Source: Bacteroidota bacterium (lineage in GTDB: Bacteria > Bacteroidota > Bacteroidia > Bacteroidales > UBA12481). From it: DNA of 64,000 bases. The position numbers were made by a program, and so were the translations under genes. Positions 14,738 to 64,000 of the stretch are shown here, in pieces (positions within the stretch are counted from its first letter, which is position 1; each line of letters starts with the position of its first letter). The notes under the pieces were generated by a model. The model searched no databases. It had not been told where the DNA came from and worked only from the letters and a program-made list of their open reading frames with translations. Location: the NCBI GenBank assembly GCA_018669475.1, contig JABHCC010000085.1, forward strand, positions 1 through 64,000, given 5' to 3'.

Positions 14738-14948
14738 ATCGGGAGTCGGGAATCGGGAGTCGGGAATCGGGAGTCGGGAATCGGGAATCGGGAATCGGGG
14801 CACGCGGGAATCGGGGGATAGGGAAAGGTGACGCCATCGTGACGCCGTCGTGACGCCGTCGTGACGCCATCGTGACGCCATTTCGTGACGCCGGACTTCG
14901 GATGCCGGACCTCGGACCTCGGACTGCGGACCCCCGGACCCCGGACCC
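14738..14948. repeat. Composite low-complexity array (GGGAATC, GTGACGCC, GGACCTC modules)
   Basis: Three modules in order on the plus strand. (1) Nine contiguous heptamers atcggga/gtcggga (14738-14800) with degenerate continuation to 14826. (2) Six gtgacgcc units, mostly spaced 11 bp by atc/gtc (about 14828-14892). (3) About eight ggacctc-like heptamers (14893-14948). It fills the gap between the ribokinase stop and the CvfB-fusion promoter. Modules 1 and 2 recur in the same order at 63229-63330, and module 3 recurs in reverse complement inside the last methyltransferase gene. No spacers of CRISPR type and no transposase are present. Confidence 0.9.
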
Positions 14949-46140: not shown

Positions 46141-46653
46141 TTAGCGATTTATTCCCCTTCCAACTCCTTGTCCGGCAGCACGCCCTGCTCCACGACCAAC
46201 TCCACGCCCTGCTCCTCCACGCCCTGCTCCACGACCAAAGCCAAGATTGTTGCTCCGTCCTCGTCCTTGTCCGGCAAATCCTTGCCCACGACCTGTTCCT
46301 TGCTTGAGATTCAGGCTTTTGCCTCTTGACGCAGGTATCAGTGTCCAAATTTCCTCCTGATGTTTGGCTTTAAGGGCATTCATCTGTGCTCTCATCTGAT
46401 TTTTAACATCCCAGTCACGTGTTCCCTGCAATTTATTTCGCAGTGGAGTCATTGCCTCCTGGTGAGCTTTCTGCATCTGGCTTATTTTAGCCTGTTGATC
46501 AGCAGTGAGGTCAATACCGGTGAGGCAGTAACCATAATCGCTTTGATTTTGAGCTTGTACAAATCCCCGTCCCTGACGGTTTTGTGCGTCAAGCTGCATA
46601 CTGAGCCCCATAACAAGGCTGATGATTAGTAATGAAGTTATTTTCTTTTTCAT
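46141..46653 (-). CDS. Spy/CpxP-like periplasmic protein with Gly/Arg-rich tail
   Basis: 170 residues. The signal peptide ends around LDAQ. The middle (50-110) is helical with LTADQQAKISQMQKAHQEAMTPLRNKL and KHQEEIWTLIP, an LTxxQ-type Spy/CpxP motif set. From residue 115 the tail is dominated by Gly and Arg (GRGQGFAGQGRGRS; GRGAGRGGAGRGVGRGAGR), encoded by imperfect tandem repeats. Spy-like proteins are periplasmic chaperones or stress sensors; the tail is unusual and could bind nucleic acid, polyanions or metal (inference). It is the last gene of the ECF sigma operon. Confidence 0.78.
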   Translation of the reverse strand: MKKKITSLLIISLVMGLSMQLDAQNRQGRGFVQAQNQSDYGYCLTGIDLTADQQAKISQMQKAHQEAMTPLRNKLQGTRDWDVKNQMRAQMNALKAKHQEEIWTLIPASRGKSLNLKQGTGRGQGFAGQGRGRSNNLGFGRGAGRGGAGRGVGRGAGRAAGQGVGRGINR

Positions 46654-63228: not shown

Positions 63229-63416
63229 GGGAGTAGGGAGTAGGGAATCGAGGAAAAGGTGACGCCAACTCGTGACGCCGAAAAGGCAATGGTGACGCCA
63301 AAACGTGACGCCGAAAAGGTGACGCCTTGGGACTGACGACTTTTCCCTGCTGATGACTGAAAACTGATGACTGACGACTTTTTTCTGATAACTGAAAACT
63401 GAAGACTGAAAACTTA
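63229..63416. repeat. Second composite low-complexity array (GGGAGTA, GTGACGCC, GACTGA modules)
   Basis: Module 1: gggagta, gggagta, gggaatc heptamers (63229-63250). Module 2: five gtgacgcc units spaced 12-20 bp by short variable linkers (63258-63327). Module 3: gatgactgaaaact / gataactgaaaact / gaagactgaaaact units of period 14 (two times seven; 63330-63416). The first two modules match the array at 14738-14892 in sequence and order. The array fills the gap between the URO-D stop and the methyltransferase start. Confidence 0.9.
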
Positions 63417-63420
63417 ATAT

Positions 63421-64000
63421 ATGAATTTCTATACTAGTATTGCTGAATTATATGACGAGATATTTCCTTATAAACCGGTTCAAAAGAGGTTTGTTGAGGG
63501 AGTTATGGGCAAAGGTCCGGGGTCCGATGTTCGGGGTCCGGGGTCCAGGGGATTGGGTTTGGGTTTGGATACGAGGGAGAGTAGTTTGCTTGATGTTGGT
63601 TGTGGTACGGGTAGTTTGGTTTTGAACCTGTCGGATCTTTTGGATACTGTGATCGGAATTGATCCGGATAAGGAGATGCTGCAGCTTGCAAATTTGAAGG
63701 CCATGAAATATAAGGCTGATCGACGTGATGAGCTGGAGGATTTAGGGAAATGGGTTTTTGTTCAAAAAGGGATGTTGGACCTTACTAATGAATTTGTCTC
63801 TGACTCTTTTAATTCAGTTATCTGTTTTGGAAATACCCTTGTGCATTTATCCACAATTGACGAGGTGAAAGAATTCATCCGGCAGGCATTTGAAATATTA
63901 AAACCTGGCGGATATCTGATGATACAGATTATCAATTATGATCGAATTATTGATCAGAAGCTAAGGGGGCTACCAACAATTGAAAATGAGAATCAGAAGT
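63421..64000 (+). CDS. Class I SAM-dependent methyltransferase (partial, runs off the window)
   Basis: The frame opens with ATG at 63421 and stays open to the window end (193 residues visible). N-terminal FYTSIAELYDEIFPYKPVQ leads to motif I LLDVGCGTGSL (56-66), IGIDPDKEML (motif II), VICFGNTLVHL and LKPGGYLMIQI (motif III region), a small-molecule methyltransferase pattern. Residues about 31-50 (GKGPGSDVRGPGSRGLGLGL) are Gly/Pro/Arg-rich and are encoded by a GGTCCGG heptamer array (63514-63548), a probable insertion in a loop before motif I. Substrate unknown. The frame is preserved despite the repeat. Confidence 0.85.
   Translation, partial: MNFYTSIAELYDEIFPYKPVQKRFVEGVMGKGPGSDVRGPGSRGLGLGLDTRESSLLDVGCGTGSLVLNLSDLLDTVIGIDPDKEMLQLANLKAMKYKADRRDELEDLGKWVFVQKGMLDLTNEFVSDSFNSVICFGNTLVHLSTIDEVKEFIRQAFEILKPGGYLMIQIINYDRIIDQKLRGLPTIENENQK
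63514..63548. repeat. GGTCCGG heptamer array inside the methyltransferase gene
   Basis: Five tandem 7-bp units (ggtccgg, ggtccga, tgttcgg, ggtccgg, ggtccag) at the position encoding residues about 32-43. The unit is the reverse complement of module 3 of the array at 14893-14948. It is followed by a g/t-rich stretch (ggattgggtttgggtttgg) that is also low in complexity. Confidence 0.9.

Follow-up and report, generated by a model that had tools for sequence, protein, structure and literature searches.

The array and its host gene

The stretch of 64,000 nucleotides analysed here (the window) ends within a gene for a class I SAM-dependent methyltransferase, whose reading frame opens at 63421 and closes at contig position 64245 to give a protein of 274 residues. 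The assignment is consistent with both Pfam matches and the predicted fold. The protein contains motif I (LLDVGCGTG, residues 56-64) and a predicted Rossmann-like fold, and in a fold search with the predicted structure the nearest solved structures were class I SAM methyltransferases such as 3d2l, 7pd7, 4hh4 and 1wzn. Close to its 5' end the gene is read, without a stop, through a tandem array for which TRF reports a period of 7, 5.3 copies, 76% matches and the consensus GGTCCGG. The array is degenerate, with at most about two adjacent units being identical, and is followed directly by a run of GGGTTT hexamers; Pfam methyltransferase domains start just 3' of the array (Methyltransf_25, for example, from residue 57). 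The preliminary description of this DNA had placed an in-frame GGTCCGG array at this point, immediately before motif I. TRF, the pattern search and the open frame agree that the array is real, and the Pfam boundaries and the position of motif I bear out its placement.

The pattern GGTCCGGGGTCCGG, a pair of GGTCCGG units, has five matches in the window when up to two mismatches are allowed, against 0.06 expected from shuffles. All five fall either in 63514-63548 on the plus strand or in 14905-14947 on the minus strand, confirming the earlier report of the same unit in reverse complement near 14893-14948. The latter matches belong to an intergenic composite array whose GGACCCC unit is the reverse complement of GGTCCGG. 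TRF also reports tandem arrays elsewhere in the window, at 177-212 (period 14, GTCCCTGGTCGAGG) and at 46179-46233 (period 12-15, CACGCCCTGCTC). On the sense strand of the methyltransferase gene G is in excess over C at 63546-63635, motif I codons included (skew 0.68), which places this segment among the most extreme 90-nt stretches in the window; the G-rich repeat may have caused this skew through an effect on mutation.

Table 1. Repeat features and the host gene in the window (positions are those of the window unless marked contig).
Feature	Position	Strand	Evidence
Intergenic composite array of GGGAATC-type, GTGACGCC-type and GGACCCC-type units	14738..14948	+	TRF, pattern search
Composite repeat region: GGGAGTA heptamers, GTGACGCC octamers with spacers, then CTGATAA/CTGAAAA heptamers	63229..63420	+	TRF
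Left arm of inverted repeat, 71 nt, 96% complementary	63314..63384	+	Repeat search; right arm at contig 64301-64371
Class I SAM-dependent methyltransferase gene, 274 aa	63421..64000, on to contig 64245	+	ORF, Pfam, fold search
In-frame array of about 5 degenerate GGTCCGG heptamers	63514..63550	+	TRF, pattern search
Insertion of 19 residues (57 nt), ends ambiguous by a few codons	63514..63573 (approximate)	+	Alignments, low-confidence model residues 33-51
Putative G-quadruplex motif, GGGGTCCGGGGTCCAGGGGATTGGGTTTGGG	63533..63563	+ (sense)	Motif scan, RNA folding
GGGTTT hexamer run, prolonging the inserted segment	63549..63568	+	TRF

Comparison with homologues and predicted structure

In an alignment with 80 homologues from public genomes, the spacing between F15 and D58 is 42 residues in this methyltransferase, compared with 21-27 (mode 23) in the other proteins (21 residues in one, 22 in 19, 23 in 50, 24 in nine and 27 in one). 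The closest relative, encoded by a Bacteroidales MAG of the same genus (JAGLDP010000088.1; protein 69% identical), has KSFVESFKVHGPNSTLLDVGCGTG at the site where this methyltransferase has KRFVEGVMGKGPGSDVRGPGSRGLGLGLDTRESSLLDVGCGTG. The protein thus contains 19 lineage-specific residues that are extra with respect to both the closest homologue and the mode of the 80, in good agreement with the 'about 20' added residues of the preliminary description, although the insertion event is deduced from homologues at most 69% identical and not from near-identical flanks. The same description had allowed that the segment would be an ordinary part of the protein if close homologues had an equally long loop; the segment is absent from all 80. 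Loops before motif I do differ in sequence among relatives, as they would if this were an ordinary loop that displays a heptamer pattern by chance. The ordinary loop is, however, ruled out by its length, 42 residues where none of the 80 homologues exceeds 27, and the pattern exceeds expectation in the window and recurs throughout the genome (see below), such that we give this explanation practically no credence.

An AlphaFold model of the methyltransferase (26 sequences) has a mean pLDDT of 89.3. Residues 33-51 are the only run in which pLDDT falls below 50, and are located between the helix formed by residues 19-30 and the first strand (residues 55-59), consistent with the tolerant loop that had been proposed as the site of the array. 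In the SAM methyltransferase fold, the residues leading into strand 1 are placed at the far end of the sheet from the SAM site. Across the 26 proteins, this methyltransferase included, 29 alignment columns are invariant, most of motif I among them; together with the stop-free frame, this means that nothing points to a pseudogene. The effect of the insertion on the predicted enzyme is probably near neutral.

Calculated effects of changes in array length

The preliminary description suggested that the gene would be phase-variable if copy number changed by units of 7 bp. By calculation, loss or gain of 7 nt would truncate the product to 65 or 56 residues, respectively, and loss or gain of 14 nt to 49 or 72 residues, while a change by three units (21 nt) would keep the frame and give proteins of 267 or 281 residues. 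A unit change would therefore shift the frame and truncate the product, as in a switch that turns the methyltransferase off and on through the gain or loss of single heptamers, but this is a matter of arithmetic and does not show that switching takes place. Being short and degenerate, the array does not form a long run of near-identical units, and similar arrays are located in housekeeping genes (MnmE, CoaBC), where switching would be harmful. Phase variability is thus unsupported, and we regard a switch at this locus as very improbable.

Heptamer families in the genome

Pairs of the GGTCCGG unit (GGTCCGGGGTCCGG, one mismatch allowed) occur at 103 sites in the 5.56-Mb genome, compared with one site for the reversed control. 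No such pair was found in the sister species, the genome of which is 62% complete, and at most four in other members of the family. Elsewhere in the genome, the window array and its flanks have 33 matches, with identities of 83-94%. These data uphold the view that the methyltransferase segment is made of a repeat unit found genome-wide. Two further repeats are similarly amplified: GGGAATC pairs number 135 in this genome vs 0-7 in 40 relatives, and GTGACGCC pairs number 159 vs none for the reversed control. The GTGACGCC octamers, which are separated by spacers of 1-12 nt, constitute a second repeat class that is represented in the window at 14828-14892 and 63259-63326; the spacers are similar inside one array and unlike between arrays.

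A lag scan of 838 kb showed a prominent signal at lag 7, which was echoed at lags 14 and 21, and few arrays at other lags; lag-7 periodicity identified 44 arrays in this sequence and none in random sequence. In 1.54 Mb we found 99 heptamer arrays, a count biased upward as the sample was drawn partly from contigs with known GGTCCGG matches. The commonest unit, ACCCCGG, is the GGTCCGG unit on the other strand and accounts for at least 22 of the 99 arrays, followed by CTGA-type and CGGGAAT-type units. The genome thus contains dispersed heptamers, in the sense of 7-nt tandem units present at many loci.

Arrays in other genes

Because 7 leaves a remainder of 1 when divided by 3, all three frames on a given strand of a heptamer array encode one and the same repeating heptapeptide. 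GGTCCGG arrays encode GPGSGVR on one strand and TPDPGPR on the other, and GGGAATC arrays encode NRESGIG and PDSRFPI, in both cases without stops, while CTGATAA-type arrays contain stops on one strand only. Translation can therefore pass through a GGTCCGG array at any site, provided that the insertion as a whole amounts to an integral number of codons. In 14 of the 99 cases the array lies in frame and stop-free in a credible gene, while ORFs of at least 150 residues cover ∼89% of the 1.54 Mb; both figures rest on crude gene calls, and they are consistent with a preference for intergenic regions.

Among the genes that carry arrays are those for MnmE (in two loops), a 2-oxo acid dehydrogenase E2 (in the linker), CoaBC, PBP1C, a GltD-like protein, a membrane-anchored PQQ/BamB-like protein, an AraB-like protein (C-terminus) and two other proteins. 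Homologues from five genomes of the family were compared for MnmE, the E2, CoaBC, PBP1C and the GltD-like protein. The array segment of CoaBC comprises 15-19 residues that are missing from three homologues, and that of PBP1C about 30 residues that are missing from one. At the N-terminal site MnmE has 18 residues more than the sister protein and about 35-39 more than three others, while its G-domain loop is less markedly extended, by 6-8 residues. From these alignments, the further insertions that are supported are those at the CoaBC, PBP1C and MnmE sites only. Comparison of the GltD-like protein with that of the sister did not confirm an insertion. The E2 linker was not counted as a clear insertion, as linker length varies among relatives, and an array in the neighbouring β-hexosaminidase gene (contig 64839-64878) was rejected as a second clear case because the sister protein is equally long there. 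ORFs overlapping arrays only at a doubtful 5' start (RecN, for example) and small ORFs composed of arrays were set aside.

A putative G-quadruplex in the inserted segment

The sense strand of the inserted segment carries a canonical quadruplex motif (Table 1); the window contains only two more such motifs, and shuffled sequences contain none. When quadruplexes were allowed, RNA folding gave −28.9 vs −22.1 kcal/mol. A putative quadruplex motif of G tracts is also present at 14741-14823, and the related GGGAATC repeats form quadruplexes in vitro (PMC4692102). The G-rich segment may thus have been retained as a putative quadruplex, in mRNA or DNA, that would tune translation or transcription of the methyltransferase. 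In several gene arrays (E2, PBP1C), however, the G-rich strand is the template, so that there is no common orientation, and such a role is improbable.

Flanking repeats and the origin of the array

The methyltransferase gene is preceded by a composite repeat region, the CTGATAA/CTGAAAA heptamers of which stop just 5' of the start codon, and is flanked by inverted arms of 71 nt, one on each side, with the right arm beyond the window. Homologous recombination between the arms could invert the gene. The upstream composite region has 44 matches in the genome, itself counted, and the 71-nt inverted composite includes a non-heptameric junction. The recurrence of composite blocks with such junctions argues for the copying of blocks, not slippage alone.

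We consider it likely that a G-rich heptamer array belonging to a genome-wide family has gone to fixation in the methyltransferase gene, in frame and at a position that encodes a surface loop. New sites would be occupied chiefly by copies of existing arrays, made through recombination or template switching; the copies would then lengthen, shorten and degenerate by slippage, and those that break the frame or the fold would be eliminated by selection. Alternatively, replication slippage may have expanded a short GGTCC-like seed that was already present in the gene, with no transfer from other arrays; the occurrence of one unit at many sites would then be due to a preference of the whole genome for the GGTCCGG heptamer. 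The sister has GGACCCAATTCT (encoding GPNS) where the array begins, and the array itself resembles two 21-nt near-copies, the loss of one of which would keep the frame; a seed of this kind and such near-copies make local growth possible. That a single unit family is common to at least 22 of the 99 arrays, and that blocks with unique junctions recur, which would not be expected from independent slippage, nevertheless lead us to doubt it. The earlier view that a repeat had invaded the gene therefore stands to the extent that the segment is lineage-specific and lies in a gene whose relatives have none, whether it arose by copying or by local growth.

Unit turnover between species

In this genome both MnmE loops contain GGTCCGG-type arrays. 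The sister MnmE also has heptamers at the same two loops, built from other units (AAAGACC in the first; AGCTCAG, TTATCAG and TACTCAG in the second). In a methyltransferase homologue from another genus it is a different loop that carries heptamers, namely four to five GGCTCAA units coding for SRLKAQGSRLK, and the sister homologue has a heptamer-coded C-terminal tail. The order of the methyltransferase and hexosaminidase genes is kept in both relatives; the gap between them measures about 300 nt in this genome, more than in the relatives, and the heptamers within it differ from one species to the next. Comparison of the three genomes thus suggests that array positions persist while units are replaced. 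It is conceivable, though we hold it to be rather unlikely, that this extends across the bacterial family, with tolerant gene and intergenic positions persisting and units being swapped wholesale in each lineage by a genome-wide homogenising process. If so, such a process would keep rewriting the loops and linkers of conserved proteins.

Comparison with known repeat systems

A literature search for in-frame heptamer insertions in Bacteroidota found nothing beyond three reports (PMC4692102, PMC4679880 and PMC2229807). The locus provides a homologue-checked case of simple-sequence DNA turned into protein and tolerated in conserved, even housekeeping, genes, and accounts for heptapeptide-repeat linkers in such genomes. 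It amounts to a natural experiment in the tolerance of different protein loops to inserted segments, and is relevant to the way in which heptamer families disperse and alter among closely related species.

The heptameric, quadruplex-forming GGGNATC and GGGGA(C/T)T repeats of Xanthomonas and Nostoc (Rehm et al. 2015, PMC4692102) are likewise G-rich, genome-wide, mostly intergenic and composed of degenerate units, and the GGGAATC family itself is amplified here. The present arrays differ in that the in-gene unit is GGTCCGG and several families are mixed in composite blocks. That report also gives intragenic repeats as rare (7-11%) and, in the part available, contains no description of insertion relative to homologues, whereas here long in-frame segments occur in conserved enzymes and were checked against homologues.

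TAACTGA heptamer repeats have been described in Beggiatoaceae, Cyanobacteria and Bacteroidetes (MacGregor 2015, PMC4679880). They share with the present arrays a location close 5' of start codons; indeed, the CTGATAA/CTGAAAA array in front of the methyltransferase is a rotation of TAACTGA at the position described in that work. Reverse TAACTGA arrays are also found inside ORFs, where they encode LSVISYQ peptides. Read forward, the TAACTGA unit contains stops, and most of the arrays that it forms in genes are at the ends of the proteins (PMC4679880), whereas the GGTCCGG unit, stop-free on both strands, is found within conserved domains.

Rickettsia palindromic elements (RPE; Ogata et al. 2000, reviewed in Delihas 2007, PMC2229807) are also dispersed repeats that occur in frame within genes for conserved proteins, where they seem to be tolerated, a property that the present arrays share, given the 80 homologues without the segment and the CoaBC, PBP1C and MnmE sites. 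RPEs, however, measure 105-146 bp and have terminal inverted repeats and long stem-loops, while the arrays here are tandem heptamers of variable length, the methyltransferase insert consisting of ∼57 nt of tandem heptamers and hexamers with no unit of the RPE type. With phase-variable coding simple sequence repeats the arrays have in common a tandem unit within coding sequence, the length of which is not a multiple of 3, but their units are degenerate and they occur in housekeeping genes. Heptamer repeats and in-frame selfish repeats are each already known separately, and what is new is their combination and extent here; the novelty lies in the stop-free unit, the extent within one genome and the apparent turnover between species.
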